A DNA stretch of 34,011 nucleotides, taken from an uncultured Opitutia bacterium. GTDB lineage: Bacteria > Verrucomicrobiota > Verrucomicrobiia > Opitutales > UBA953. Made by a program: the position numbers and the translations under genes. Positions 1-31,751 of the stretch are shown here, piece after piece (the stretch's first letter is position 1; each line of letters starts with the position of its first letter). The stretch lies in the NCBI GenBank assembly GCA_903850885.1, contig CAINMU010000005.1:1-34011 (forward strand), in the 5' to 3' direction. The notes below the pieces were generated by a model that did no database searches, had not been told where the DNA came from, and was given only the letters and a program-made list of their open reading frames with translations.

Positions 1-30
1 CCGGGGGTTCGAATCCCTTCCTCTCCGCCA
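1..30 (+). tRNA. tRNA-Ser, 3' part only (cut by window edge)
   Basis: The first 30 bases are the T arm and acceptor end of a tRNA. The T loop TTCGAAT (8-14) is closed by a 5-bp stem (3-7 with 15-19, including two G-T pairs). It is followed by the 3' acceptor strand CCTCTCC (20-26), discriminator G27 and an encoded CCA (28-30). An acceptor strand that would pair with GGAGAGG, plus G73, is typical of bacterial tRNA-Ser. The anticodon lies outside the window, so the isoacceptor cannot be named. Bases 11-39 recur with one mismatch at 3376-3404, which suggests an integration site. Confidence 0.85.
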
Positions 31-39
31 GGACACTTT
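11..39 (+). repeat. att-like direct repeat, copy 1 (tRNA-Ser 3' end)
   Basis: This 29-base segment comprises the last 20 bases of the tRNA-Ser gene plus 9 flanking bases (GGACACTTT). It matches 3376-3404 at 28 of 29 positions; the one difference is G27 against T3392, the discriminator base. A duplicated tRNA 3' end in direct orientation is the usual footprint of tyrosine-recombinase integration at a tRNA gene. No integrase gene is present between the copies. Confidence 0.6.
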
Positions 40-65
40 CATTAACCCCAAACAAAAGAGTCACG

Positions 66-1649
66 ATGTCCTCCTTTAAATGCAGCCCCGTGAAATTCCT
101 TCGGTTCCTCGGCCTGCAGGCGGCCATGACGGTCGCCTTGTTCGCCGCCGATAAAGCACGGCAAAAGGCAGCCGAATATCAAAGCAAGGGATACAACGTC
201 CTATTCATCGCCGTCGACGACATGAACGACTGGGTGGGCTGCATGGGCGGCAATCCGCAGGCCATCACCCCCAACATGGACCGACTGGCTAAGGAAAAAG
301 GGGTCGTCCTGAACAAGGCCTATTGCCCCTCCACGGTCTGCTGCCCGAGCCGTTCGGCCATCCTGACCGGCAAGCAGCCGGCATCGACTGGCGTCTACGG
401 CAATCGGCAGAATCTGAAGAACGCCCCGAAGGCGAAGGATGTCGTAACGCTGCCGGAATACTTCGCCAAGCATGGCTATCACACTCTCTCCACGGGGAAA
501 GTCTTCCATAAGCACCCGACCGCGAAAGGGATGGACGAGGGACAGTGGGCATTCAAAGAATTCGTGGACGCTGGCGGCAACAACGGCGGCATGCTCTGGT
601 CAGAATCTCCCGCCGCCCTGAAGGAATCGGCAAGCGAGAAGGCCACGAAAGAAAAAGGTGAGGAATTCCGGTGGGGGGCGGTCGCCGCTCCCATCGAACA
701 GACCAAAGATTATGTCTCCAGCAAATGGGCCGCCGATCAACTCAAGCGCGACTTCGACGGCAAGCCGTTTTTCCTGGCCCTCGGTATCTCCAAGCCACAT
801 TTGCCCTGGGAAGTCCCGCAGCAGTTTTTCGACCTCTATCCCTTGGATAAATTCAAGACCGTCGAGATCTTCCGCGACGACTTGAAGGACATCACGAACA
901 AGGCGGGCAAGGAGCTGTTCTCGGCTGATCCGCGCTTCCTGGCCGCCGACAAGGCGAACATGCACAAGCAGGCCCAGCGCGCCTACCTCGCGAACATCAG
1001 TTACGCCGACCACTGCCTCGGCGTCGTCTTCGACGCCCTGGCCAAGAGCAAATACGCCGACAATACCATCATCATGGTCTGGGGCGACCATGGCTGGCAC
1101 CTCAGCGAGAAACTCAAGTACGGCAAGACCGACCTCTGGGAAGAGTCGGACCGGGTTCCCTTCATCGTGAGCGTGCCGGGCGTGACCAAGCCGGGGCTGA
1201 AGAGCGAGGCGGTGGTCAACCTGCTCGACATGTACCCGACGCTGATCGAGCTGTGCGGGCTACCCGCCAACCCCGAGAACGAGGGGCGCAGTTTCGCGCC
1301 CGTGCTGAAGGATCCGACCCTGGCTTGGAACCACCCCACGCTGACGACTTACAACTGCGGGAACCATTCCGTCACGGACGGACGATATCGCTTCACGTAT
1401 TACGGCGCGAAAGGCGGCGCCGAGGAACTCTACGACCATTCGACCGACCCGCTCGAGCACCGGAATCTGGCCGCCCAGCCGGAATATATCCAGCCGGAAT
1501 ATAAGGAGATCGTCGAGCGACTGCGCCTCTTAATGCCGAAGCACAATGAACCGGATTCGCCGGTCAATAATCTGAGCCCCGAAGAGAAGAAGGAGATAGC
1601 GAAAGGTGCGCGGAAGGGGAAAAAGGCGGAGGCTGATGCCGTCAAATAA
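66..1649 (+). CDS. S1 family sulfatase, iduronate-2-sulfatase-like
   Basis: Secreted sulfatase of 527 residues, expected to hydrolyse sulfate esters, probably on sulfated polysaccharide. A hydrophobic leader (about residues 10-27) points to export. The metal-binding Asp pair is D51-D52 (FIAVDDMNDW). The formylglycine signature C-x-P-x-R-x4-TG is present as CCPSR...TG with C92 as the residue to be oxidised, so it belongs to the Cys-type S1 class and needs a maturase, which is not in the window. GDHGWHLSEKLKYGK near residues 345-360 is the second metal/sulfate-binding block, and its form resembles iduronate-2-sulfatases (inference). The tail is rich in Lys, Gly and Ala. The ATG lies 36 bp after the tRNA-Ser end, and the gene is followed by a second sulfatase that overlaps its 3' end. 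The exact substrate cannot be read from sequence. Confidence 0.93.
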   Translation: MSSFKCSPVKFLRFLGLQAAMTVALFAADKARQKAAEYQSKGYNVLFIAVDDMNDWVGCMGGNPQAITPNMDRLAKEKGVVLNKAYCPSTVCCPSRSAILTGKQPASTGVYGNRQNLKNAPKAKDVVTLPEYFAKHGYHTLSTGKVFHKHPTAKGMDEGQWAFKEFVDAGGNNGGMLWSESPAALKESASEKATKEKGEEFRWGAVAAPIEQTKDYVSSKWAADQLKRDFDGKPFFLALGISKPHLPWEVPQQFFDLYPLDKFKTVEIFRDDLKDITNKAGKELFSADPRFLAADKANMHKQAQRAYLANISYADHCLGVVFDALAKSKYADNTIIMVWGDHGWHLSEKLKYGKTDLWEESDRVPFIVSVPGVTKPGLKSEAVVNLLDMYPTLIELCGLPANPENEGRSFAPVLKDPTLAWNHPTLTTYNCGNHSVTDGRYRFTYYGAKGGAEELYDHSTDPLEHRNLAAQPEYIQPEYKEIVERLRLLMPKHNEPDSPVNNLSPEEKKEIAKGARKGKKAEADAVK

Positions 1650-3138
1650 AGAAGCCGCGTCGGACGTCGGCGAAGGCTCCGCTCGATTCCAAACGCTTTC
1701 GCCCCTTGCTTGGGGCTCCGTGCGCTTCGCTCCCGCCCTCTGCCTGCTCCTGCTCTCCGCACTCGGACTTCGCGCCGCGGATCACCCGAACATTCTCTTC
1801 ATCCTCGGCGACAACTGGCGCTACCCTAACGCCGGCGTCTTCGGCGATCCGCACGCGCGCACACCCGCCTTCGATCGCGTCGCCAAGGAAGGCGTGCTCT
1901 TCACGCACACGTTCAACCCCGCGCCATCCTGTTCGCCGTGTCGCTCGAGCCTACTCACGGGTCGCGCAATTCATGAACTCGGCGAACGCGCCTCGCTCTG
2001 GAGCGGCTTCCCACAGGACACCCCGGTGGTCACGCAGCTGCTCCGCGACGCGGGCTACGCGATCGGCTACCAAGGCAAACCTTGGGCGCCGGGTAATGCC
2101 GAGGCCTCGGGTTGGAAAGAAAATCCGGTCGGGCCGAAGTTCGCGGAGCTCGACACCTTTTTAAAGACACGCCGCTCGGGTCAGCCATTCTTCTTCTGGC
2201 TCGGCAACACCGACACAGCCACGAAAGCCGGTAAGCGACCCTATCTCGATGACGCCAAGCAGGCCGGCATCGATCCAGCTAAGCTGCCGATCCCGCTAGA
2301 GCTGCCCGATTGCGAAGAGGTCCGACTCGATCTGCTCAACTATTACGGCGGCATCATCCGCATGGACCGCGAAGCGGCCGCCGCGCTCGCCGTGCTCGAG
2401 GCCTCCGGCGAAATCGAGCGTACGCTAATTGTTTATTGTTCCGACAACGGCTGGCAGATGCCCCGCGGCCTGGGGAATTGCTACGACCAAGGATCCCGCG
2501 TCCCTCTCGCGATTCGGTGGGGCAAGGAAGCCAAGGCTGGCCTGAAGGTCGATGCGTTCGTCAACCTCGGCGATCTCGCCCCGACGTTCCTCGAAGCCGC
2601 CGGCCTGACGCCACCCAAGGAGATGACAATGCGCAGCTTAATGGGCCTGCTGCGCGGCGGGTCAGCGACGAATCGCGACGCGGTCTTCATCGAGCGCGAA
2701 CGCCACGCCGACGTCCGCCACGGCCACTTGAGCTACCCGATGCGCGCGGTCCGCACCCGCGACTTCCTTTACATCCGCAACGTCCGCCCGGATCGCTGGC
2801 CCGCCGGCGATCCAGATAATCTCTTCCTCCACGGCCGTCCCTTCGGTGACGTCGACACCATCGCGACTAAGGACTTTCTGCTGGCGCACCAGAACGACGA
2901 CCTCGGCCGACCGTTCTTCGCCCGTATCTTCGGCCAGCGTCCACTCGAAGAACTCTACGACCTCCGCCAGGATCCACATCAACTGACCAACGTCGCGGCC
3001 GACCCGGCCTACGCGACCGACCTCGCCGCCCACCGGGCCCGCGTCGACGCCTGGATGCGCGACACCCACGACCCTCGCCTTGATCTGACTTATGACGCCT
3101 GGGATAAATTCCCTTACTACGGTAAAGCACCGAAGTGA
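1636..3138 (+). CDS. S1 family sulfatase (second, divergent)
   Basis: Cys-type sulfatase. The signature C-S-P-C-R-x4-TG is present with C99 (counting from the ATG at 1636) as the predicted formylglycine. The usual metal-site Asp-Asp pair reads Asp-Asn here (FILGDNWRY), which is atypical. YCSDNGW supplies the later metal-binding Asp-Asn. The chosen ATG at 1636 has GGAGG three bases upstream and overlaps the first sulfatase by 14 bp. A GTG at 1606 is also open, and a GTG at 1720 would begin exactly at a clean signal peptide (RFAPALCLLLLSALGLRAA), so the start is uncertain and may be 1720. The overlap suggests co-transcription and translational coupling with the upstream sulfatase. The two proteins differ strongly outside the motifs, so they probably act on different linkages. 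It resembles the N-sulfoglucosamine sulfohydrolase/arylsulfatase group only loosely. Confidence 0.88.
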   Translation: MPSNKEAASDVGEGSARFQTLSPLAWGSVRFAPALCLLLLSALGLRAADHPNILFILGDNWRYPNAGVFGDPHARTPAFDRVAKEGVLFTHTFNPAPSCSPCRSSLLTGRAIHELGERASLWSGFPQDTPVVTQLLRDAGYAIGYQGKPWAPGNAEASGWKENPVGPKFAELDTFLKTRRSGQPFFFWLGNTDTATKAGKRPYLDDAKQAGIDPAKLPIPLELPDCEEVRLDLLNYYGGIIRMDREAAAALAVLEASGEIERTLIVYCSDNGWQMPRGLGNCYDQGSRVPLAIRWGKEAKAGLKVDAFVNLGDLAPTFLEAAGLTPPKEMTMRSLMGLLRGGSATNRDAVFIERERHADVRHGHLSYPMRAVRTRDFLYIRNVRPDRWPAGDPDNLFLHGRPFGDVDTIATKDFLLAHQNDDLGRPFFARIFGQRPLEELYDLRQDPHQLTNVAADPAYATDLAAHRARVDAWMRDTHDPRLDLTYDAWDKFPYYGKAPK

Positions 3139-3179
3139 GGAGGAAGGGATGGGATGACATCGCAACCGCTGTATCCAGG

Positions 3180-3205
3180 TAGGGGCAGCACCGCGTGCTG
3201 CCCTA
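3180..3205. repeat. Strong hairpin (REP-like)
   Basis: GGGCAGCAC (3183-3191) and GTGCTGCCC (3195-3203) form a perfect 9-bp stem with a 3-base loop; allowing one bulged G, pairing extends to 3180-3205. It lies 42 bp after the second sulfatase stop and has no T run, so it resembles an extragenic palindrome more than a classical terminator. It could still stabilise or end the sulfatase transcript. Confidence 0.6.
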
Positions 3206-3214
3206 GCTGCTCCT

Positions 3215-3289
3215 GCCTTAGGTAGGGCCGCGATGGCCATCACGTCCGTTCGCCGACGGACATAAGACATCATCGAGCCTAGCTAAGGC
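3215..3289. repeat. 75-bp element bounded by imperfect 12-bp inverted repeats
   Basis: GCCTTAGGTAGG (3215-3226) and CCTAGCTAAGGC (3278-3289) are inverted repeats with one mismatch. Inside are the 10-bp palindrome GATGGCCATC (3232-3241) and a 6-bp stem GTCCGT/ACGGAC (3244-3261). The nested symmetry suggests a REP/BIME-like or small MITE-like unit. The preceding hairpin also starts with AGGTAGGG, so the two may be related units. Genome-wide copy number is unknown from this window. Confidence 0.5.
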
Positions 3290-3375
3290 CTAATCTAAAG
3301 GTGACAGGTGACGGCCATCGGGGCATCGGGCATCGGCGTTTCAACCACCGACCGCCGGCTTCGGGTTCCCGCGCT

Positions 3376-3404
3376 GAATCCCTTCCTCTCCTCCAGGACA
3401 CTTT
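3376..3404 (+). repeat. att-like direct repeat, copy 2
   Basis: It matches 11-39 at 28 of 29 bases, including the acceptor strand CCTCTCC and the flanking GGACACTTT. Upstream of the match the tRNA is not recognisable: GGGTTC is followed by 7 extra bases before GAATCCC. It is therefore a fragment rather than a second tRNA. It sits 12 bp beyond the stop of the VWA-like gene on the other strand. Confidence 0.6.
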
Positions 3405-3416
3405 ACTCAGACTAAA

Positions 3417-4784
3417 CTATCGTGTGGCCCGGACGGTACCTGGAACTGTCGTACCCGTGGCGCCTTGCACGACCATCGGCTTACCGATGGTGAGTTCATC
3501 GGCGTCAGGCGGCGGATTGCCGCCGCTCCGCAACCATTCGACCATCTTAGATTGTCCACCCGAAGCGGCCACGCAGCGGGCAAAGATCGGCTGCGGCTCG
3601 ACTTCGGTGGAGAACAAATAAAGCCGGGGTCCATGGCCGGATTTCGCCCCCGCGAACGCATTGACCAGTTCATCTTCCCAATGCTTCTCGGCGGGCTTCC
3701 GGTCGTCGGTCGGCAGACGAGAGCGGACGCTGTCACAGTAGATGATCGTGGCGTCACGCGTCGAATAGCTGGCGGACTTATCGCCCTTCGGGCTGCGATA
3801 TTGGGTCACGCCGTCTTGAAAGTCGGAGAAGATAACCAAGCCGTCGTAAGCGCGCTCATTGCGCATGATATCAATCCACGCCCCCACGCAACCCGTCTTG
3901 AAATTATCATCATATTGTTTAAAGATACGCTTACCGTTAGCGGTGAGCTTTTCCGGGTCAGTGGTCTTGGCTGGGGGCGCGCCGGTCCGTCCGGTCGTGC
4001 CTTTGTAGCGAGAACCGCCGATGATGATATCGTCCTTCACATTGGTCCAAACTCCGGAATACATGAAGATATCCGCCGTGGGAAACTGCTTACGGATCTC
4101 GGATTCCACTCGATCAAGATAACGGGCCATCGATTTCGAGGCGTCCATAAAGACCGCGACTTTAGTCGCGACGATATGGGCGCCCATCACAGGCTTACCG
4201 ACGAAATTACGCGTGCCGCCGACGCCCAGGCCCTTCCCGGAACCAATGCCGCCGCCCGAACCTCCGCCAAAGCCCTTCGAGGATGTGCCCGAAAGTTTAG
4301 AAGATAAGGCATCAGGCATCACCGCACTCACCCGCAAATCAGGTAAGGCGATTTTGGCTTCGGTGCTCTTGGTGGTAATACGAGCGACTTTTTTCGCGTG
4401 CGTCTTTTCTTTCTTCGCCTGCAAGTTGTGTTCGACGATCTTGGCCCTTTCGCCGGCAGCCCCGCCGCCCGCGCCAGTGGCGATGTATACAGCCTGACTG
4501 GCCGCTTTATCCGTAAATGCCGAGATTACCCAAAGGAAGGCGACAATCAGCAGGAAGAAATGGATCGCGACGGAAATGATCAACCCCCGGCTGCTGATTA
4601 CTCGGGTCAGCCAATAGCGTAAAGTCCCGGCCACGCCCAGTTTCCGCAATGGGGGGCGGGCGGGCTCGTCCGTCGGGCGGGCTCGTAACAGGCTATTTTC
4701 TTCGACACTCATCGCGGAGTAATCGACTTTTGCAGGGGGGCCAAAACCCTCAATCTCCATAGCCAGTCGATGCCAAACCGTCAC
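3417..4784 (-). CDS. Membrane-anchored VWA-like protein
   Basis: This 455-residue protein has a cytoplasmic N-terminus of about 65 residues and a single membrane segment at about 68-90 (LIISVAIHFFLLIVAFLWVI). A basic stretch follows (about 123-145), then a Gly/Ser-rich linker (172-190), and a C-terminal domain starting near residue 205. That domain begins AVFMDASKSM, a DxSxS MIDAS motif (D214, S216, S218) typical of von Willebrand A folds that bind a divalent metal and mediate protein contacts. The single anchor followed by a long extended linker recalls TonB-type layouts, but no TonB C-terminal domain is seen. The track start is GTG at 4784; ATG at 4760 and at 4712 are alternatives and none has a clear ribosome binding site. 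The partner and function are unknown. Confidence 0.75.
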   Translation of the reverse strand: MTVWHRLAMEIEGFGPPAKVDYSAMSVEENSLLRARPTDEPARPPLRKLGVAGTLRYWLTRVISSRGLIISVAIHFFLLIVAFLWVISAFTDKAASQAVYIATGAGGGAAGERAKIVEHNLQAKKEKTHAKKVARITTKSTEAKIALPDLRVSAVMPDALSSKLSGTSSKGFGGGSGGGIGSGKGLGVGGTRNFVGKPVMGAHIVATKVAVFMDASKSMARYLDRVESEIRKQFPTADIFMYSGVWTNVKDDIIIGGSRYKGTTGRTGAPPAKTTDPEKLTANGKRIFKQYDDNFKTGCVGAWIDIMRNERAYDGLVIFSDFQDGVTQYRSPKGDKSASYSTRDATIIYCDSVRSRLPTDDRKPAEKHWEDELVNAFAGAKSGHGPRLYLFSTEVEPQPIFARCVAASGGQSKMVEWLRSGGNPPPDADELTIGKPMVVQGATGTTVPGTVRATR

Positions 4785-21934: not shown

Positions 21935-22452
21935 AGGAGTCCCTTCAGTCACCCACCGGTGCGCCGGCTCGAAGCGGCTTCACCCTCCTGGAAACGCTGC
22001 TTGTGATTGGCCTGATGAGCATGCTCGCGGCCGTCCTAATCGGAGGCTCCGCGTCGCTGCTTAAAGGCACGGCGCGATCCGATCCGGAAGACGCTCTCTT
22101 GGCGTTGATGCAAAAACTTCGGCGCGATGCCGTGGAACAAGCGCAGACCATCGAGCTTATTCCCGTCAGAAAAACCGAAGGTGAAGAAGGCGCCGACTTC
22201 ACTTGGGGTGAAGAGCATGAAGAGACCCTGCCGATCCAAGCTGGAGTCTCCGTCAAAATCATCGGCCCCGAAGTCGGCGGAGCTATTCTAATAGGCGGAC
22301 TGGAGACCGAAAGCTCCGTCGCTCGCTTACGTTTTTATCCGGATGGCACGTGTGACCGCGTCCGGCTCGAAATTGTCCGGAGTGAAAATCGCCGGATCAC
22401 GCCGATCGACCCCCTCACCTGTGCCCCGCTGCCGGCGGTAGATGCGAAATGA
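21931..22452 (+). CDS. gspH: Type II secretion minor pseudopilin GspH-like
   Basis: This 173-residue protein starts with GTG inside a GTGA overlap with gspG. Prepilin cleavage is expected after G16 in RSGFTLLETLLVIGLMSML, with Glu at +5 (E21). The globular part is short and beta-rich, with IELIPVRKT and VSVKIIGPEVGGAI. Position between gspG and gspI and size agree with GspH, a minor pseudopilin found along the pseudopilus; sequence outside the helix is too divergent to prove this. The stop overlaps the gspI ATG by 4 bp. Confidence 0.85.
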   Translation: MKESLQSPTGAPARSGFTLLETLLVIGLMSMLAAVLIGGSASLLKGTARSDPEDALLALMQKLRRDAVEQAQTIELIPVRKTEGEEGADFTWGEEHEETLPIQAGVSVKIIGPEVGGAILIGGLETESSVARLRFYPDGTCDRVRLEIVRSENRRITPIDPLTCAPLPAVDAK

Positions 22453-23336
22453 AGACCCGCGGCTTCACCCTCATCGAGGTCCTCGTCAGTCTCGCGATCT
22501 TCGCGCTCGCGGCAGTCGGATTAGGCTCAGCCTATTCCAACGTCTTGCTTGGGCGGATGGCTTTAAAACAAACCTCCACCGAACTGGAAGATATGGCGCG
22601 GGCCCGAGCGGCCCTCATGGAGTCGGCCAACTTCGAAGACGCCGAAGGCGGTGGCGACATTCATCTGCCGGGTAATCGCACGGCACGCTGGAAATCAAAA
22701 ATTGAACCGACTTCCGTCAGCGATCTGTTTAGCGTCGTCTTGTCCGTCGAAATCCAAGCGGAAGAAAATGGCGAATATTCGCCCGAGAAGACGGAGGCCC
22801 GCCTGCTGTTACGCCCGACGTGGTCGGTGCCGGCCGATCGCACTAAGATTCGCGACGAGGCCAAGCAAAAACTCGAACGCGAACGCGGTTACACCGAGTC
22901 CAACGGTAATTCCAGTTTTGTCAGTAAAGCGACTTCACCTAAAGGCACTACCACCGCCGCCGGAGGCAAGGGCAACACGCCCCCAGGCAAGGGCACGAAC
23001 AACGGCAAAGGCAGTAACAACGGTAAAGGCACGAATAACGGCGGCGGCAAAGGCAATAACAACGGTGGCGGGAAAAATGGCGGAGCTACGCCACCGCCGG
23101 CCCCAAGGGCGCAGGCGCCGCACCCAAATCTGTCCAATGAAACCCGCTTCGCCTCAGTCTCGCCGCGGTTTCACGCTCCTCGAGACCCTCGTTTCCTTGG
23201 CCCTCTTGGGCGTACTGATGGTCACGCTGAATACTTTCTTGTTCTCGATGAGCGAGCTCTGGGGCGATCGCCGAGATCAGCGGCTCTTCGATCAACACGT
23301 GAAAGCGGGCACGCGACTCTTAAGGGAGACGTTTGA
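22449..23336 (+). CDS. gspI: Minor pseudopilin GspI, probably frameshifted near its 3' end
   Basis: Prepilin leader KTRGFTLIEVLVSLAIFALAAVGLGSA with cleavage after G5 and Glu at +5 (E10) identifies a tip pseudopilin. The short pseudopilin domain ends near residue 130 and is followed by a low-complexity Gly/Asn/Lys/Thr region (about 165-215) encoded by tandem repeats. The frame then runs 200 bp into gspJ, ending in an Arg-rich stretch that looks like out-of-frame reading. In the -1 frame from 23060 onward the sequence is open and ends at a TGA at 23138-23140 that overlaps the gspJ ATG by 4 bp, as at all other junctions of the block. The true protein is therefore probably about 230 residues. 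Either the 295-residue version is real, or an indel or frameshift lies between 23060 and 23137. Confidence 0.88.
   Translation: MKTRGFTLIEVLVSLAIFALAAVGLGSAYSNVLLGRMALKQTSTELEDMARARAALMESANFEDAEGGGDIHLPGNRTARWKSKIEPTSVSDLFSVVLSVEIQAEENGEYSPEKTEARLLLRPTWSVPADRTKIRDEAKQKLERERGYTESNGNSSFVSKATSPKGTTTAAGGKGNTPPGKGTNNGKGSNNGKGTNNGGGKGNNNGGGKNGGATPPPAPRAQAPHPNLSNETRFASVSPRFHAPRDPRFLGPLGRTDGHAEYFLVLDERALGRSPRSAALRSTRESGHATLKGDV
22992..23075 (+). repeat. Tandem repeat encoding Gly-Thr/Ser-Asn-Asn-Gly-Lys units in gspI
   Basis: Four consecutive units each begin GGCA and end AAA: 22992-23009 and 23010-23027 (18 bp each), then 23028-23051 and 23052-23075 (24 bp each, with an extra Gly-Gly). Related GGCAAGGGCA copies lie just upstream. 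Such tracts are prone to slippage and sit directly before the suspected frameshift. Confidence 0.7.
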
Positions 23337-23787
23337 CGCTGCCACAATCGGACCCGGGGCGACCGGCGTGGTCATCAAGGATACGCGCTCCGGCAACGGC
23401 ACGACCGAACCTCGACTGGCTTTCTTGCTCGCCGACGCCGGCCGTCTGGCCGACTGGCCCGCCACACCTCTGCCCGATGTAGATTTCTCGCTCTACGTGG
23501 AAGCCGAGAAAGGCCTCGTCCTCCAATGGCAATCGCGCCTGGAAATCGAACGCGATACCAATGACCTCCACGAAACCATCATTTCGCCGTTCGTCACTGC
23601 GATTCATTACGAATATTATGACGCGACCTTAAAGACTTGGAGCGTCGAAGACGAGCCGAAGCAAAACGACGGCAGTACGGCCTGGTTACAACCGGCGCGC
23701 GTCCATCTCGATTTCGCCCGCGGATCCCTCAAATCGACGTCGGTCATTGACATGCCCATCAAGCGTTCCGGCGCTTCACGACCATGA
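23137..23787 (+). CDS. gspJ: Minor pseudopilin GspJ
   Basis: This 216-residue protein starts at ATG 23137 within the 3' part of the gspI frame; longer upstream reading in this frame is low-complexity shadow. Prepilin cleavage is expected after G11 in SRRGFTLLETLVSLALLGVLM, with Glu at +5 (E16). The body has the GspJ pattern WGDRRDQRLFDQHVKAGTRLLRETF followed by a beta-rich globular domain with VTAIHYEYYDATLKTW. GspJ forms the pseudopilus tip with GspI and GspK. Its stop overlaps the gspK ATG by 4 bp. Confidence 0.92.
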   Translation: MKPASPQSRRGFTLLETLVSLALLGVLMVTLNTFLFSMSELWGDRRDQRLFDQHVKAGTRLLRETFDAATIGPGATGVVIKDTRSGNGTTEPRLAFLLADAGRLADWPATPLPDVDFSLYVEAEKGLVLQWQSRLEIERDTNDLHETIISPFVTAIHYEYYDATLKTWSVEDEPKQNDGSTAWLQPARVHLDFARGSLKSTSVIDMPIKRSGASRP

Positions 23788-25013
23788 AGCAACGTCGTCG
23801 CGGTTCCGTCATCGTGGTGGTCTTGGTGCTGATCACCTTGGCATCCCTGCTCTTGGGGCGCTTCATGGAAGACAATTCCCTTGAGCTCTCCATGATCACC
23901 CACGAAGCCGACAAGCGTCGGCTCCGGGCTGATGCCCAATCGGAGCTGGAACTTGCCATCGCCGTCATCGCCGAGATTCGCTCCATCGACCTGAATAAGA
24001 TTCATGCCGTCTCCCAGGGCTTTGAGGATCCCCACGCTTACGCCGGCTTCCCGCCCCGCGAAGGCCTTGAAGTGACTTTTGAGTTCGAGGACGAAAGTTC
24101 GAAGCTCTCTCTCAGCACGACGGACAAGAACGGGCTGATCCAGCTTCTTTACTCGCTCGGCCAAGAACAGCGCGATGCGGAACGGGTGGCGGACGCTATC
24201 GTCGCCTGGACCAGTAAAAAATATGAGTCCATCGAGGAAGAGGCGACCGATGCCGCTTACGAGCGCGCCGCCTTATCCCACCGCCCCGCCCGTCGGCCGA
24301 TTCGCAACTTCGAAGAATTCCGCACCATCGGCGTGGCTAAAGAATTCTTCTTCGACGAAGAAGGTCGGCCCACCCCGCTATTCGAAGCCTTCAAGGGGTG
24401 CGTGAGCCTCTACACGTTCGACCGTTGTAATATTAATACCGCTTCCGATGCCGTCATCCTCTCCCAAGGCCTTGACGACAAGCAGTTGGCCATCATCCGC
24501 GAACGGCAAGCGACGGACAGCAAGCGGATCGTGGGGACTCCCCCTTATTTCCGCGTAACCAGCGAAGTTCGGCAGATGGTGGGCGGAAATGCCCCCCTCC
24601 AGCGTTTCGACGACGAAATTCAGATTCTTTGGGTACGCGCGACCGTCAAGGAAGGCCTCGCCCAGTGCCGGACCAGCGCCTTGGTCGCTATCCGCTCCGA
24701 CATCACGTTCACCGCGCCCGTGGCCGACCCCGAAACCTCCCCCTCGATCGACATCAAAGGCAGCACGAAGGCCCCAATTATCCCAAAAACATCGGGAACC
24801 TCGACAGCCTCCGCAGGGTCGACTACATCAACGACTAAAGCAGCCGCTACCTCCACGACCACCCCCGGAGTCGAACCCCCGACATCCCTTGGCAAATCCA
24901 CGCTCGGCGGCCGAGCCTCCAGCAAGACCATCAATTATCCCTTTCAAATCCTCGCCTGGAACGAAGACAACGGCCCAGCGAAAAAACCCCCGACCCCTCC
25001 GCCCCCTAAATGA
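23784..25013 (+). CDS. gspK: Minor pseudopilin GspK
   Basis: This 409-residue protein has a short basic leader ending at G7 (KQRRRGSVIVVVLVLITLASLLL). It lacks Glu at +5, which is the known distinguishing feature of GspK, the tip cap of the pseudopilus. The large globular domain includes DGDDKNGLIQLLYSLG-type helical regions (seen as TTDKNGLIQLLYSLG), AIVAWTS, the conserved FDRCNINTAS block and a late SEVRQMVGG. The C-terminal 90 residues form a Thr/Ser/Ala/Pro-rich tail (about 318-390) that ordinary GspK lacks and that may be a glycosylated or disordered linker. Its stop overlaps the next ATG by 4 bp. Confidence 0.92.
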   Translation: MKQRRRGSVIVVVLVLITLASLLLGRFMEDNSLELSMITHEADKRRLRADAQSELELAIAVIAEIRSIDLNKIHAVSQGFEDPHAYAGFPPREGLEVTFEFEDESSKLSLSTTDKNGLIQLLYSLGQEQRDAERVADAIVAWTSKKYESIEEEATDAAYERAALSHRPARRPIRNFEEFRTIGVAKEFFFDEEGRPTPLFEAFKGCVSLYTFDRCNINTASDAVILSQGLDDKQLAIIRERQATDSKRIVGTPPYFRVTSEVRQMVGGNAPLQRFDDEIQILWVRATVKEGLAQCRTSALVAIRSDITFTAPVADPETSPSIDIKGSTKAPIIPKTSGTSTASAGSTTSTTKAAATSTTTPGVEPPTSLGKSTLGGRASSKTINYPFQILAWNEDNGPAKKPPTPPPPK

Positions 25014-26140
25014 GTTCATTCATCACTCGCTGGTTTTCTAACGCTCAGCCGCAAACCGCGGCGGCGCTCCTTCCGGGTAATCGTTTCTTCGTCCGCCGGA
25101 TCAACGTCGAAAGCGCGACGGCGGAAGAGCAGGTAAACCTCGGGCTCGAGGCGATCTCCCCCTTCCCGCTTGAACAAATGCTTGTGGGCCACGTGCTTTC
25201 CGCCGACGGCACCCAAGCCTTGGCCTATGCCGCCCACCGACGTCGCTTCACGCCCGAAGAGAGCTTTGCTTGGCCGGACGATTGCCAAGTCATCCCCGAG
25301 TTCGTCGCCCTGTGTGGCATCCGCCCGAATGGTGCCGGCATCATCGTCCACCAGGGCGATGAACGCCTCATCGCACTGGCCTGGGGCGAAGGAGATATGC
25401 TTCCCGCCGCTATCGTCGTGGCAGAAACCGTAGATAGCGATCAGGCCTCGATTGTCCGCGAAGCGGCTGCCCGGGCCGATCTCCCCGCCGATACGGCCGT
25501 GACCGCGATTTCCGGAGCGCTTTTCGGCGAAACCATCGAAGGCCAGTTATCCCTTAAGGCCGAAGGCAACGCGCCGATGCTGATTTCCAAGAAGGCCCTC
25601 GATGCCGCTGACATTCGCGACCGCGATTTCCTGGCCCAACGCCGCAAAAAAGAAAGTACTAATATGCTGATCTGGAACGCGACCCGTCTCGGCCTGGCGA
25701 CACTCGTCGTTTCTTTCATCCTCGAACTGGTTGCGATGGGCATAAGCCTGCGCAGCAATAAACTGCAGGCCAAGACCGAGAGCCAGCAGCCCCTCGTCGC
25801 CGAAATTGAAGCGGCCCAAGCCATCTCGGCCCGCATCGTCGATCTCGGGGTGAGACGCCCGCTCTCCCTCGAGATGCTCGCCTTGGCGAATGAACACCGC
25901 CCGAGTACCCTCGATTTCCAACGCATCACCTGCAAGAATAACACCCTCCTCGAAGTGGAAGCTCGTACCACGAACGCGGGCGACATCGGCATCTTCGAAC
26001 GTGCCCTATCTGGGCTTCCAGAAGTCGCTTCCGCTGCCAGCCGCGATATTCGCGCCCGCGAATCATCGACGTCCTTCACCATCGCCATCACTTTCAAACC
26101 CGAAGTCCTTCGCAAATCTGCGGCCACCCCAAAACAATGA
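25010..26140 (+). CDS. gspL: Type II secretion inner-membrane protein GspL-like (PilM/PilN-like)
   Basis: This 376-residue protein has a cytoplasmic part of about 220 residues with a weak actin-like (PilM/GspL) pattern (EEQVNLGLEAISPFPLEQML, IIVHQGDERLIAL). One membrane segment follows at about 225-247 (TRLGLATLVVSFILELVAMGI), then a coiled-coil-like stretch and a periplasmic ferredoxin-like domain of about 100 residues (LDFQRITCKNNTLLEVEART). This is the GspL architecture: it recruits the GspE ATPase and joins GspM. Sequence is divergent, so the name rests on architecture and gene order. Its stop overlaps the gspM ATG by 4 bp. Confidence 0.82.
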   Translation: MSSFITRWFSNAQPQTAAALLPGNRFFVRRINVESATAEEQVNLGLEAISPFPLEQMLVGHVLSADGTQALAYAAHRRRFTPEESFAWPDDCQVIPEFVALCGIRPNGAGIIVHQGDERLIALAWGEGDMLPAAIVVAETVDSDQASIVREAAARADLPADTAVTAISGALFGETIEGQLSLKAEGNAPMLISKKALDAADIRDRDFLAQRRKKESTNMLIWNATRLGLATLVVSFILELVAMGISLRSNKLQAKTESQQPLVAEIEAAQAISARIVDLGVRRPLSLEMLALANEHRPSTLDFQRITCKNNTLLEVEARTTNAGDIGIFERALSGLPEVASAASRDIRARESSTSFTIAITFKPEVLRKSAATPKQ

Positions 26141-26682
26141 AACACCTCTTTTTCTCCCTCAAGATGCGCGAGCGCGTGATGGCACTCGCCGCCTTGGCCG
26201 TGGGCGCCTTCCTTTGGTCAACGGGCGCCTGGGCGCGCACCCGGGGCGGCTGGGATAACTGGCAGGCCCTTGAAGCTGAAGCCAAAATCCAATCCTCTTG
26301 GATGGCTAAAGAGAAAGAAATCCGAGACGCGGCGACGGCAGCCGTCCAAGGCCTTGATGCCGGTCACGGTTTTGATGAAGCTCACCTCGTCGCCGAAGCC
26401 GTTGCCGCCGCCAAAGAAGCCGGCCTGACCGCCAACACCGAAGCGCCTAAGACCCAGAAGGCCGGTCGCTTCGCCATCCACTCTCTCCAGATGAGTTGCC
26501 GCCGCGCCGACATGGCAAGCATGGTCAAGTTCTACGAGAACATCAGCGAGCGCGCACCGTATGTGGCGATCAGCCAGCTTACTTTGCAATCTGAGCGCGG
26601 TACGACCGGAACGGTGACCGCCACCCTGCGCCTGGATGCACTGGAACTGATTTCTCCCCCGACGTCCGCTCCGGCTAAATAA
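26137..26682 (+). CDS. gspM: Type II secretion inner-membrane protein GspM-like (PilO-like)
   Basis: This 181-residue protein begins KHLFFSLKMRERVMALAALAVGAFLW, a short cytoplasmic segment with a conserved R-E-R before the single membrane helix (about 13-33), as in GspM. A helical region then leads into a small C-terminal alpha/beta domain (FAIHSLQMSCRRADMASMVKFYENI, VTATLRLDALEL). GspM pairs with GspL to form the assembly platform. It is the last gene of the + block. Its TAA at 26680-26682 lies 2 bp from the gspF stop on the opposite strand, leaving no space for a terminator. Confidence 0.85.
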   Translation: MKHLFFSLKMRERVMALAALAVGAFLWSTGAWARTRGGWDNWQALEAEAKIQSSWMAKEKEIRDAATAAVQGLDAGHGFDEAHLVAEAVAAAKEAGLTANTEAPKTQKAGRFAIHSLQMSCRRADMASMVKFYENISERAPYVAISQLTLQSERGTTGTVTATLRLDALELISPPTSAPAK

Positions 26683-26684
26683 GC

Positions 26685-27917
26685 CTAGAAGCGGAAACTT
26701 GAGCTGACTTCGAAAACGGCCGCCACGATCGCGAACGCGATGAAGGCAACAAAGGAGAAGGCGGCGACCAAGACAGAGGCGGAAATAGTCTGGGAAATTG
26801 CGCCCAACCAACGATCGAGCTCGGCGCGATAAGAGCGCGAAATATCGCGCAAGCCGGGCGCGAGGTTGCCGGTCTGTTCGGCGACGGCGACCCGGTCCAA
26901 AAGAAGCCGAGGGAAATACCCCGTGCGGGCCAAGGCCTTGGAAAGGCTGTCCCCTTCCAAAACGCGGTCAGTCGCTTCGCGTAACTGTTGCCGAAGGGCA
27001 CGATTAGGCGCCGTCTTTTCCGCCAGCCGTAAGGCTTCGGCGGTCGTGATACCATTCTCCAGCAAGACCGCCAAGGTGTGACAGAAATTAAGGACTGAAA
27101 CCCGCATCACAAACGACCCGGCGATGGGTACGCGCAACAGCAAGCCGTCGGAAGCAATCTTACCCGCATCTGTCCGGCGCCAGCGATAGACTCCGATAAC
27201 CGTGATCACCAAGAGGCCGGCGAAGATCGGCCCGGCCACGACGAAGACGTCGGCGAAGGTAATTAAGAGCTTCGTGGACAGTGGCAGCTTACCGCCCAAG
27301 GAATTAAGTAAGGTCTGCAAGCGCGGCAAAAGAAACAGGACGAAGAAAATCACGACCCCGATGGCGATGACGCAGATGAAAATCGGGTAAGCCATGGCGC
27401 CGATTAGTTTGCGGCGGAATTCTTTTTGTTCGTTGAAGTGAGAGATCAGCCGCTCCAACACGTCGCGAATATTACCAGTGGCCTCACCCGCGGAAATCAG
27501 ATTGAGCGTTTGTCCGTCAAAGACCTTTGGGAAAGCTCCCATCGCCGCCGAGAGGCTTTGGCCTTCGCCTAGTTTGGCCCAGATACCGGAACAAAGCGTC
27601 CGCAGTCGGGATTTTTGCAGACGCAGTGACAGCAACCGCAATGATTCGCCGGCCGACATCCCGCTACGCACCAAGTCGGCCATGGATTCTAAAAACGGCA
27701 GACACTCGGCTTCGGTCGGCTCCTGGTCGGGCGTAAGTTTTGAGCCATCCTTGGATGCTTCTTTTGCCCGCACCGCCGCACCGGCCTCTTCCACTTTCAG
27801 AGGTCGGATATTACGTGACTGCAAGCGCCGCAAGGCCTCGCGGCGATTCGGGGCTTCGATTGTCCCCTCGGCCGCCGCTCCCTGGGCATCGCGTGCGGTA
27901 TAGTTAAAGACGGCCAT
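26685..27917 (-). CDS. gspF: Type II secretion platform protein GspF
   Basis: This 410-residue polytopic inner-membrane protein has two repeated GspF domains: FLESMADLVRSGMSAGESLRLL (about 75-200) and FCHTLAVLLENGITTAEALRLA (about 275-400). Membrane segments lie near 170-195, 218-245 and 375-402. The conserved G-E-x-T-G-N-I (about 142-148) and VAVAEQTGNLAPGL blocks are present. It is the platform core that couples GspE ATP hydrolysis to pseudopilus growth. It begins 5 bp after the gspE stop, so it is co-transcribed with gspD and gspE. Confidence 0.96.
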   Translation of the reverse strand: MAVFNYTARDAQGAAAEGTIEAPNRREALRRLQSRNIRPLKVEEAGAAVRAKEASKDGSKLTPDQEPTEAECLPFLESMADLVRSGMSAGESLRLLSLRLQKSRLRTLCSGIWAKLGEGQSLSAAMGAFPKVFDGQTLNLISAGEATGNIRDVLERLISHFNEQKEFRRKLIGAMAYPIFICVIAIGVVIFFVLFLLPRLQTLLNSLGGKLPLSTKLLITFADVFVVAGPIFAGLLVITVIGVYRWRRTDAGKIASDGLLLRVPIAGSFVMRVSVLNFCHTLAVLLENGITTAEALRLAEKTAPNRALRQQLREATDRVLEGDSLSKALARTGYFPRLLLDRVAVAEQTGNLAPGLRDISRSYRAELDRWLGAISQTISASVLVAAFSFVAFIAFAIVAAVFEVSSSFRF

Positions 27918-27922
27918 CGGGC

Positions 27923-29608
27923 TTATTCGTTCGAACTTAAGTTGCGCACGAGCTCATCGATGGTCGTGTGACCTTGGACAACCTTGATCCAGCCCGCCCG
28001 AGCCAATGGCCGCATCCCTTGGGAAATCGCTTTCTCCGTGAGTTCGCGATTACTGACGCGACTGACGATTAAATCATGCAGCGGCTTAGGGTGGAAAATT
28101 TCGAAAACCCCGACGCGGCCGCGATAGCCCGTATGGCGGCACTTACGGCAACCGACCGGTTCGCGCAGGGTCGTGACTTCTGCCAACTCTTTTTCCCCCA
28201 TGCCCAAAGCTTCGAGGGCCGGCAAGAGACGCTCGCGAACGACTGGTACCGTCTTGGCACAATCGCTACAGACTCGGCGAACGAGACGTTGGGCGATGAC
28301 CAGCTCGACGGCCGAGGCGACTAAGAAGGGCTCTACCCCCATGTCGACCAGACGCGTGATGGCGCCAGGTGCGTCGTTGGTGTGCAAAGTCGAGAAGACG
28401 AGGTGTCCCGTCAATGAGGCACGGATGGAAATTTCGGCAGTCTCTAAGTCGCGAATTTCTCCGACCATGATGACGTCCGGATCTTGACGCAGCGTGCTCC
28501 GCAAGGCGTTCGCGAACGTCAGGCCGATTTCGGCTTTGGTCTGCACCTGGTTCGCACCGGGCACTTCGTATTCAATCGGATCTTCAATCGTCACGATCCG
28601 GAGTTCGGGCGAATTGATTTCCTGCAAGAAGGCGTTCAACGTCGTCGACTTACCCGAACCGGTAGGGCCGGTGACGAGGATGATGCCGTGCGGATAGTCG
28701 AGCTCCTTGCGCACGGCGGACTGCTCATCGGGGTTCATGCCGATGCGGTCCATATTATAAGCCTCCTTACGTTGGTTCAGGAGACGAAGCGAAACCGATT
28801 CGGCGTAGATGGTAGGAATCGTCGAAACGCGAATATCGAGGACGTTCTTACCGTCGCGGAAATTGATTCGGCCGTCTTGCGGTAGACGACGTTCGGAAAT
28901 ATTCAACCGCGCCATGATCTTGAGGCGAGAGATGATGGCGTCTTGGAAGCGCGAGAGGTTATCTGGTAAAGGTACCGCGAGCAGAATGCCGTCGACGCGA
29001 TAACGGATGCGCAACGCCCCTTCTTGGGGCTCAAAGTGAACGTCCGTCGCGCCTTCGGCCACGGCTTGAGAAAGGACTTCCGTGACGAAGCGGACGACGG
29101 CAGCGTCTTGGTCGGCTTCGACATCGGCGCCAGCCGCTTGTAATTCGGGAAGGTCTTCGCCTTCGTCATCCAAGCTGCCCGAACCCACGCCGTAGTTTTC
29201 GTTGATCAGCTGACTGACGCGCTCGGGCGGAGCCAGATACCACTTGGGGCGGCGGGGCGTAAAAGTCGCGACCCAATCGGCCGTGTCAGCATCCGGCGGA
29301 AGCGAGGTCACCAAGCGAAGACGGCCTTCTTCGCCGCCGGGCATGGTAACCGGTACCACTTGGGCTTCGGAAGCGATCCGGGCGGGTAAGATTTTTAAAC
29401 CTTCCAGATCGATGGCTGGCTCATCCAGGACTTCGAAGCCCGTCAGCTTCGCCAATTCGGCGAGCAGTCCGGCCTCATTGAGATTAAGCGCTTGAGCCAA
29501 AAATTTAAAGCGGGCCTCTCGCGGCGTCTCCGCGAACGCGGCGCGAGCCTCGTCGGTCAGTCTTTCGGCGAGCGCCGAAGGCAGTCCGTGCCGGTCAACA
29601 GTCAGCAT
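27923..29608 (-). CDS. gspE: Type II secretion ATPase GspE
   Basis: This 561-residue cytoplasmic hexameric ATPase has an N-terminal GspE/MshEN-like domain (to about 160). The catalytic domain has Walker A GPTGSGKST (314-322), an Asp box around IEDPIEYEVPGANQVQ, Walker B DPDVIMVGEIRD (376-387) and a His box GHLVFSTLHTN (401-411). A zinc-type pair C447-x2-C450 and C487-x2-C490 is complete. All catalytic blocks are intact. It powers pseudopilus assembly through GspL and GspF. Its ATG lies 1 bp after the gspD stop and its stop 5 bp before gspF, so gspD-E-F form one tight operon. Confidence 0.97.
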   Translation of the reverse strand: MLTVDRHGLPSALAERLTDEARAAFAETPREARFKFLAQALNLNEAGLLAELAKLTGFEVLDEPAIDLEGLKILPARIASEAQVVPVTMPGGEEGRLRLVTSLPPDADTADWVATFTPRRPKWYLAPPERVSQLINENYGVGSGSLDDEGEDLPELQAAGADVEADQDAAVVRFVTEVLSQAVAEGATDVHFEPQEGALRIRYRVDGILLAVPLPDNLSRFQDAIISRLKIMARLNISERRLPQDGRINFRDGKNVLDIRVSTIPTIYAESVSLRLLNQRKEAYNMDRIGMNPDEQSAVRKELDYPHGIILVTGPTGSGKSTTLNAFLQEINSPELRIVTIEDPIEYEVPGANQVQTKAEIGLTFANALRSTLRQDPDVIMVGEIRDLETAEISIRASLTGHLVFSTLHTNDAPGAITRLVDMGVEPFLVASAVELVIAQRLVRRVCSDCAKTVPVVRERLLPALEALGMGEKELAEVTTLREPVGCRKCRHTGYRGRVGVFEIFHPKPLHDLIVSRVSNRELTEKAISQGMRPLARAGWIKVVQGHTTIDELVRNLSSNE

Positions 29609-29609
29609 G

Positions 29610-31751
29610 TTACTTCTTTGCAGGTGCGGCTACCGGTTGACCAGGGATACGGTCGAGTACCTGACGGGCTTCAGGTCCGAGGCTCGACGCATCGACGCGA
29701 TTGAGTCCGTCGATGTTATCGGCGGCCGTATTCGTCAGGACGTAAGGACGAAGGAACATCACCAGCTCCGTGCGAGTTTCGTCGCTTTGGCTTCCGCCAA
29801 ATAGATCGCTCAAGAATGGAATCGGTCCGAGTCGGCTGGTCGATTTGATTTTCTGCCGGCGCTGCAAGCCGCCGAGGACGATGATTTCTCCGCTCATCGC
29901 ACTGACGAAGGAATCTGTCGTGCGACGGCCGATGATCGGCTGGCTGTTACCGTCGACCATGACGTGGTCGATAATGTCTTCCACGGATTGGCTGACCTGT
30001 AATTGTACGGCTCCGTCCTTCCCGATCAGCGGTAGGACTTTTAATTGGATGCCGATATCGCGCATGGAAACCGTCGAGCTGGTCGTCAGGCCGGTCGAGC
30101 TACTGGTGTTAGCTGTCGAAGTCACCCCGGTGATGACGGGGAGAGATTCGCCGACGAAGATCGTCGCCTCTTTATTATGCGTGGTGGTGATAGCCGGGCA
30201 GGACAGGATACGCGCGTCGTTTTTAGCGGGCGTGGTGGCGAGGCCGATGATACCGGTCAAGTTGCCACTGCTGTTGATGGTCGCTTGTCCGCCGGCGAGA
30301 CCCCCTAAGCTTGAACCATTGGCGCCTGCAGCCGAAAGGAACGTGCCGCCGATGCTCGTAAGCTTACCGTTTGTCACCGTCATGTTCAGTGAGGAAATCC
30401 CGCTGGTATCGCTATCGGTCAAGGTCACTTCGGCGATGACTACTTCGACGCGCACTTGAGGGAGTAAGCCGTCGACTTTGTCGATCAAGTCGCGAAGCAG
30501 GCGCAAGTCATCCTTCGTTCCGGAAACGATAATCGAGTTACTGCGAATGTCTGGTAGCACCGTCACCGTATTACTAAATTCATCGGCCCCTGCTTGGGCG
30601 GCACCAGCGGCAGAAGGAGCCGCCACCGCGACGGGAATCGCCGCGACGGGCGTAGCCGCACGGGCGCTCGGTGAGCCCTTTGTGGTCCCGCTTGCCTTGG
30701 TCGCGGCGGCGACCTGGCCAGTGACTAACTGCGTCAGCATCGTGGCGACCTGGGTTGCGTCCGAGTGGCGGAGCGCGATGACGTCGGTCTTGGTGTTGGG
30801 CGCCGAAGCGGAATCCAGGGTGTTAATGAGCTTATCAAAGAATTCATGCTGGTCGGCCGAGCCCATGAGGATGATGCGGTTCGTCCGTTCATCGGCGGTA
30901 AAGCTGGTGCCGGTGCTCAAACGGAAAGGCGCTCCACCCGTGGCGGCAGGCGTGCGCAGCAAGGCGGTCAGCTTATTGACCAAATCGGTGGCGACGGCGT
31001 TCGTCAAAGAATATGTCTTGGTGGCGATGACATCGAGCTGCGGGCGATCCAGTTGCAGCACCAAGTTTTCAACTTTCTGGAGATTAGTAATCGAGTCGGT
31101 AACGAGCAGGGCGTTATTGCGCGCGAAGTAAATTGGCGGAGAAGCGAGCGTGCTATTTAGCATGCCCGAGATTTGGAGGACCATTTCCTGCCCGCTGGCG
31201 TGTTTGAGCGTGAAAATCTTGGAAGCGATGCGGCCACTGGGCGGCATTTTGAGTGTGCTCTCCATGAGCAACGTCGGCGACTCCGCCTTGGCGACGAGGT
31301 TGGGGACGACCTTGAGGAATTTATCGCCCTGCTGGATGACCGCAATGCCGTTAAGGTTAAGCAAGGTCTCGATCGCGAGGAGGGCATCGTCGCGCGTAAT
31401 CGAGGCGGGCAGCGAAAGCGTGTAGACGTTCGCGGGGAGCGCCTGTGGACGAAGCACCGACTTGCCGGTCCAGCGCTGCAAAAGCTCTAACATTTGGGCG
31501 ACGGTTTCATCGCGCAGAATGACTGGCCCGACCTTATCGGAGCCTAAGAGTTCGGGAGTTGGTACCGCTGCGGCGACGGCGACGACCGCAGGGGCGGTAG
31601 TGGTAGCGGCGGCAGGGGCGGCCTGGCCAAAGAAGGTGGAGGGTAGAACGGTGCCCAATAAACATAGGCAATAAAAGGGCAGGTAAGCCCGGCGTTCACG
31701 TGGGGTTGAAATAGAGCAATTCACTGGAGGGAGGGTACAAAGGGATAACAC
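29610..31751 (-). CDS. gspD: Type II secretion secretin GspD
   Basis: Outer-membrane channel of 713 residues. The start is a GTG at 31751, and GTG 31724 is an alternative; the export signal lies at about residues 24-43 (YLPFYCLCLLGTVLPSTFFG). An Ala/Thr-rich linker precedes the N0 domain (about 70-155). N1-N3 domains follow, with an Ala/Pro-rich insertion (about 355-400, ARAATPVAAIPVAVAAPSAAG). The secretin core (about 430-680) has VRVEVVIAEVTL, GEIIVLGGLQRRQ and RLGPIPFLSDLFGG. The C-terminus ELVMFLRPYVL is the last secretin strand region. Multimers form the gated exit pore. No pilotin gene or lipobox is visible nearby. It is transcribed divergently from the gene at 31926. Confidence 0.96.
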   Translation of the reverse strand: MLSLCTLPPVNCSISTPRERRAYLPFYCLCLLGTVLPSTFFGQAAPAAATTTAPAVVAVAAAVPTPELLGSDKVGPVILRDETVAQMLELLQRWTGKSVLRPQALPANVYTLSLPASITRDDALLAIETLLNLNGIAVIQQGDKFLKVVPNLVAKAESPTLLMESTLKMPPSGRIASKIFTLKHASGQEMVLQISGMLNSTLASPPIYFARNNALLVTDSITNLQKVENLVLQLDRPQLDVIATKTYSLTNAVATDLVNKLTALLRTPAATGGAPFRLSTGTSFTADERTNRIILMGSADQHEFFDKLINTLDSASAPNTKTDVIALRHSDATQVATMLTQLVTGQVAAATKASGTTKGSPSARAATPVAAIPVAVAAPSAAGAAQAGADEFSNTVTVLPDIRSNSIIVSGTKDDLRLLRDLIDKVDGLLPQVRVEVVIAEVTLTDSDTSGISSLNMTVTNGKLTSIGGTFLSAAGANGSSLGGLAGGQATINSSGNLTGIIGLATTPAKNDARILSCPAITTTHNKEATIFVGESLPVITGVTSTANTSSSTGLTTSSTVSMRDIGIQLKVLPLIGKDGAVQLQVSQSVEDIIDHVMVDGNSQPIIGRRTTDSFVSAMSGEIIVLGGLQRRQKIKSTSRLGPIPFLSDLFGGSQSDETRTELVMFLRPYVLTNTAADNIDGLNRVDASSLGPEARQVLDRIPGQPVAAPAKK

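Follow-up and report, generated by a model that had tools for sequence, protein, structure and literature searches.

The question raised by this locus is why the 3' end of a tRNA-Ser gene should occur a second time, in direct orientation, behind a pair of sulfatase genes (sulfA and sulfB). The window analysed here is the entire contig C5, 34,011 bp in length, of an Opitutales genome (G000) of 2.34 Mb in 152 contigs, and the 29-bp direct repeat in question occupies positions 11-39 (GAATCCCTTCCTCTCCGCCAGGACACTTT) and 3376-3404 (GAATCCCTTCCTCTCCTCCAGGACACTTT), with 28 of 29 bases identical and the sole mismatch falling on the discriminator base, exactly as an initial annotation of this DNA had described. 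That annotation took the pair for the attachment (att) footprint of an element integrated at a tRNA gene, with the sulfatases as a mobile cassette, or alternatively for a chance duplication or the remnant of a second tRNA-Ser. We argue instead that the second copy belongs with the tail units of a structured RNA of the RtT type, a repeat long known behind tRNA-Tyr of E. coli, and that it would be such a tRNA 3'-end copy that has lost its hairpin body, a reading which we rank first and to which we give an even chance of being right.

That the repeat is genuine follows from several comparisons. The best further match to the 29-mer on either strand of the window reaches 18/29, the genome holds two copies only, both of them those of the window, and matches of at least 28/29 are expected by chance about 2e-10 times per window; an equivalent repeat pair also flanks the orthologous sulfatases in two congeners, G010 and G025, at spacings of 3366 and 3276 bp. 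The pair is therefore not an assembly artefact, and the same observations refute a chance match, for which no evidence speaks and which may be set aside as practically impossible. ARAGORN calls no tRNA-Ser in the window because the contig begins within that gene; relatives (G001, G010, G025, G015 and others) have a complete tRNA-Ser(CGA) at the corresponding place, which bears out the initial description of a displaced tRNA-Ser 3' end. On the left the identity of the window copy reaches 1 nt past the start of AATCCC, and on the right that of the repeat continues 8-12 nt beyond CCAG.

Short copies of this kind recur throughout the genus. In 20 congeners, the window counted among them, the end of tRNA-Ser(CGA) is present as 23 short copies, which all begin at the identical T-loop position and mostly lie 119-195 bp apart; 18 of the 23 are directly preceded by a hairpin element. 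In G027 the element is separated from its tRNA copy by inserted DNA, and the copies of G000, G010, G025 and G017 have no hairpin body, that of G017 belonging to a 367-bp tandem duplication from the same tRNA position. The full unit is composed of a short spacer, a hairpin element of ~100 nt (GGGATGAGAACC...GCGNAGYC), and the last 20 nt of the tRNA from the T-loop AATCCC, with one to four units per tRNA-Ser gene in this Opitutales genus. The hairpin element, accompanied by the matching tRNA end, is also found behind tRNA-Ser TGA, GGA, and GCT, and sequence together with covariation shows that the copy of the tRNA end base-pairs with the 5' strand of the element in a closing stem, which varies with the tRNA (ATCCCTTC/GAAGGGAT, ATCCCATC/GATGGGAT, ATCCCTCC/GGAGGGAT) and in which two pairs are altered on both sides across 37 sequences. 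A pattern search yielded 80 contigs from freshwater Opitutae/Opitutales metagenome-assembled genomes (MAGs); of the 69 elements with more than 250 bp of upstream DNA present, 57 follow a tRNA-Ser at a distance of 10-395 bp, and none follows a different tRNA. The genome of the window has elements at C85:996-1106, behind tRNA-Ser(TGA), and at C97:180-291, where the body follows the 3' end of tRNA-Ser(GCT) and has no tRNA copy of its own; behind the other tRNAs of this genome, no 3'-end copies were found (30 loci, flanks up to 1.5 kb). A separate observation concerns G059, in which four identical 127-bp RtT-like units stand behind tRNA-Ser(TGA) (C4:81278-81770; L228), an arrangement that points to recent tandem amplification.

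The kinship with RtT was examined in both directions. The Rfam RtT model (RF00391) scores the hairpin elements at 26.3-37.4 bits, which is under its gathering cut-off of 45 bits. The reverse test is the stronger one: a model built from Opitutales hairpin-element sequences only (R1), which matches the elements behind tRNA-Ser(CGA) in congeners at 68-114 bits, recovers at 37-39 bits (E about 1e-6) all four RtT units in the tyrT-tyrV region of E. coli K-12, where direct reading of the sequence shows the layout GGGGAAGGATGAGAA...TAATCCTTCCCCCACCACCA. By R1, the tyrT/tyrV spacer itself (L361, NC_000913.3 1285800-1287800, 1566-1680) is an RtT unit, besides three downstream. Across the order, R1-type elements are matched in 48 of 273 genomes, and the 20 match places inspected lie mostly behind tRNA-Ser, with one (L385) having no tRNA within its stretch. 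Matches in other Opitutales families extend the range of host genes: three RtT-like units stand behind a tRNA-His (L398 in G267, 685-1210) and one RtT-like match behind a tRNA-Pro (L400 in G251, 664-833), and the copied 3' end is in each case that of the tRNA concerned. Two other assignments were discarded, namely an IscB/TnpB-type guide RNA, for which the hairpin units gave no Rfam match and RtT fitted, and the sX4 and plastid families, whose Rfam matches were matches to tRNA parts.

How does the window copy relate to these units? It has the RtT-type boundary and lies at the place taken by RtT units in the relatives G020, G033, G024, and G021; in G020, which carries SulfB and the neighbouring gene for a VWA-like protein, a unit sits exactly at this locus, and in G021, which has no sulfatase, two units end before the VWA-like gene. 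The split unit of G027 demonstrates that an RtT unit can be broken and its tRNA copy displaced by inserted DNA. We therefore envisage a history in which units would increase in number through tandem duplication downstream of the tRNA, as the identical tandem units suggest; in the lineage of the window the hairpin body would have been lost, or the REP-like (repetitive extragenic palindrome-like) repeat would have taken its place, and the sulfatases would have come to lie between the tRNA and its end copy via recombination at the locus, not as the cargo of an integrase. In E. coli tyrT the RtT units are transcribed with the tRNA, and if the same were true here, processing of the tRNA 3' end would set intact units free as small structured RNAs. 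The window copy is probably now without function, since its discriminator base has decayed. Several observations weigh against this derivation. Around the window copy the model, run unfiltered, detects no RtT body, the best score in 3000-3500 being 6.6 bits, and with no GATGAGAA...hairpin body before it the copy is at most an RtT remnant. The copies that lack a body (G000, G010, G025, G017) are preceded by TG and the RtT copies by YC, so that the identity is one base longer in the former and their origin could differ. The REP-like repeat preceding the second copy has a counterpart in G010 and G025, 220-310 bp upstream of their tRNA, an arrangement that is also compatible with a local duplication. 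Finally, in the genome of the window, contig C97 opens (1-160; L262) with GTCCGCA repeats followed by the 3' end of tRNA-Ser(GCT) from TTCGAATCCC; this looks, from its sequence, like the end of an integrated element, so that T-loop events may occur, which keeps an att origin alive.

The distribution of the sulfatases bears on all of these possibilities, with the proviso that the comparisons involve draft genomes, mostly MAGs, several of whose contigs stop at the tRNA-Ser repeats themselves. In nine congeners (G001, G010, G025, G015, G029, G059, G068, G069, G062) tRNA-Ser(CGA) is immediately followed by a SulfA orthologue (88-96% identity), and among the SulfA-bearing loci the second short copy is present in the window, G010, and G025 only, the other seven congeners having SulfA without it, a tally that is incomplete in that the contigs of G068 and G069 end too early and an insertion sequence (IS) occupies the place in G059. 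There, IS-like sequence and the start of a transposase (L250 from 7894) lie at the position of window 3350-3404; the SulfA gene of G010 shows an apparent frameshift near codon 438, or an assembly error (L111 around 5372). SulfB is found near the tRNA without SulfA in G020, G033, G024, and G028, and the pair therefore does not behave as one cassette, contrary to what the initial annotation proposed. Relatives sharing the sulfatases at this locus, which that annotation had named as evidence against insertion, are thus largely found for SulfA, and SulfB occurs in part without it. A SulfA tree places G001 as the sister of the window (98/98 support), so that the absence of SulfB and the second copy from G001 is best interpreted as a loss; the missing stretch runs from ~1721 to 3461, with breakpoints outside the repeats. 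Window and G059 share 99.5% identity in the intergenic DNA at 3130-3349 despite a divergence of ~6% in SulfB, which points to recombination between lineages. On this sequence evidence, the sulfatases look like long-standing, reshuffled neighbours rather than a single cassette.

An att scar would require that tRNA-Ser(CGA) was invaded by an element carrying a T-loop integrase, that the copy at 3376 was left behind, and that the integrase was then lost, the sulfatases being residual cargo of the element or a cassette mobilised in trans. In one respect the initial proposal stands: tRNA-Ser(CGA) is a true integration hotspot, with tyrosine-integrase islands or parts of them in four congeners. The segments of G020 (L117 122-5310) and G031 (L116 31-8750) measure 5.2 and 8.7 kb, carry a Phage_integrase gene beside the distal tRNA copy, and also encode a C5 cytosine methylase or a GmrSD/HNH protein, possibly as defence cargo; a related integrase is encoded in a 3.5-kb segment of G062 (L184), and another adjoins a tRNA copy in G064 (L185, L261). 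Together with the island-like end on C97 and the continuation of the repeat past CCAG, these islands are what can be said for integration. The part of the proposal that makes the sulfatases the cargo of a T-loop att event finds no such support. The island duplications extend deeper into the tRNA than the AATCCC start, by 30 nt in G031, 56 nt in G020, and 57 nt in G062; between the two copies of the window there is no integrase, only the two sulfatase open reading frames and the repeat-rich, REP-like intergenic DNA, as first reported; and a search confined to relatives of the G020 island integrase gave no match in G000, G001, G010, or G025. The segment displays no clear base-composition signal of foreign origin (58-64% GC). 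The sulfatases occur singly, and at the locus without the copy, and the single-copy empty site anticipated in relatives did not emerge in precise form among the congeners' loci, a comparison limited by incomplete contigs, the loss in G001 having used other breakpoints. We accordingly consider an att scar unlikely, although it ranks second among the readings.

A plain local duplication, in which the tRNA region (or a second tRNA-Ser) was tandemly duplicated and then suffered a deletion that fused the REP-like repeat to the tRNA 3' end, comes third and seems to us a little more doubtful still. It accounts for the order of REP-like repeat and tRNA end occurring twice, upstream repeats included, and it has a precedent in the tandem duplication of G017, which shares the tRNA start and has no RtT body. 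Yet every short copy begins at the same T-loop base, which random deletions would not produce, and the REP-like repeats are dispersed (the one at 3300-3375 recurs in part at about 10 further places in the genome), so that it may be by coincidence that they stand on both sides. The identical start and the place of the copy are what an RtT-type origin shares with the intact units of the relatives, and it is on this account that we continue to favour it.

Table 1. Features of the first part of the window, with the basis of each assignment.
Feature	Position	Strand	Basis
tRNA-Ser(CGA), 3' part; remainder lost at contig end	1..30	+	full tRNA in congeners
Repeat copy 1, T-loop to CCA plus 9 bp	11..39	+	sequence comparison
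SulfA, PF00884 sulfatase, CCPSR motif	66..1649	+	orthologues at same locus in congeners
SulfB, PF00884 sulfatase, CSPCR motif; overlaps end of sulfA	1606..3138	+	orthologues found
Intergenic DNA, REP-like hairpin near 3176-3210	3139..3299	.	
Dispersed REP-like repeat immediately before second tRNA copy	3300..3375	.	
Repeat copy 2 of tRNA-Ser 3' end (28/29), no RtT body upstream	3376..3404	+	
Membrane-anchored protein with DASKS motif (VWA-like) and without Pfam match; lies to the right of the locus in several congeners	3417..4784	-	

Two features of the surroundings deserve mention. The start of sulfA lies 36 nt past the tRNA CCA, and there is no terminator-like site at 31-66; the shortness of this terminator-free gap suggests that tRNA-Ser and sulfA may be co-transcribed. 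Further along the window, at 22449-31751, genes of type II secretion/pilus type are found on both strands, encoding an N-methylation protein, a T2SSK-like protein, a T2SSE ATPase, and a secretin.

The implications reach beyond this contig. A duplicated tRNA 3' end is not always an att scar, and in Opitutales such copies stem mainly from RtT-like repeats, so that island finders relying on tRNA fragments could misfire. RtT-type RNA is extended from the tRNA-Tyr of E. coli to tRNA-Ser, -His, and -Pro in another phylum, with a tRNA end that covaries, and its role becomes testable by comparison. We lean slightly towards a broader proposition, namely that RtT represents a wide family of tRNA-tail repeats: the tRNA-Ser genes of Opitutales, and some for tRNA-His and -Pro, may each carry their own tailored units, the closing stem co-evolving with the tRNA 3' end, as a structured RNA of general occurrence linked to the maturation of tRNA 3' ends, and the arrays may render tRNA loci prone to rearrangement and could trap genes such as these sulfatases.

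Two known systems provide the frame of comparison. With the tRNA-targeted genomic islands bearing a tyrosine integrase that have been mapped by Islander (PMC4383910), the window shares a displaced tRNA 3' fragment, in direct orientation and downstream of the regenerated tRNA, and the same tRNA is occupied by integrase islands in congeners; it departs from them in having no integrase in the segment, a duplication shorter than those of the islands measured at tRNA-Ser(CGA), a cargo that is not inherited as a unit, and no precise empty site. The comparison with RtT of the tyrT-tyrV region is closer for the Opitutales elements as a whole than for the window copy, which differs from the E. coli units in having no structured body. 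The host tRNA is Ser (also His and Pro) in Opitutales and Tyr in E. coli, and in both groups the tRNA is followed by tandem units that each terminate in its 3' end, copied from within the T-loop (AATCC) onwards; the units have GATGAGAA on the 5' side and hairpins bearing GCGAAGCG, and the copied end takes part in the closing stem.

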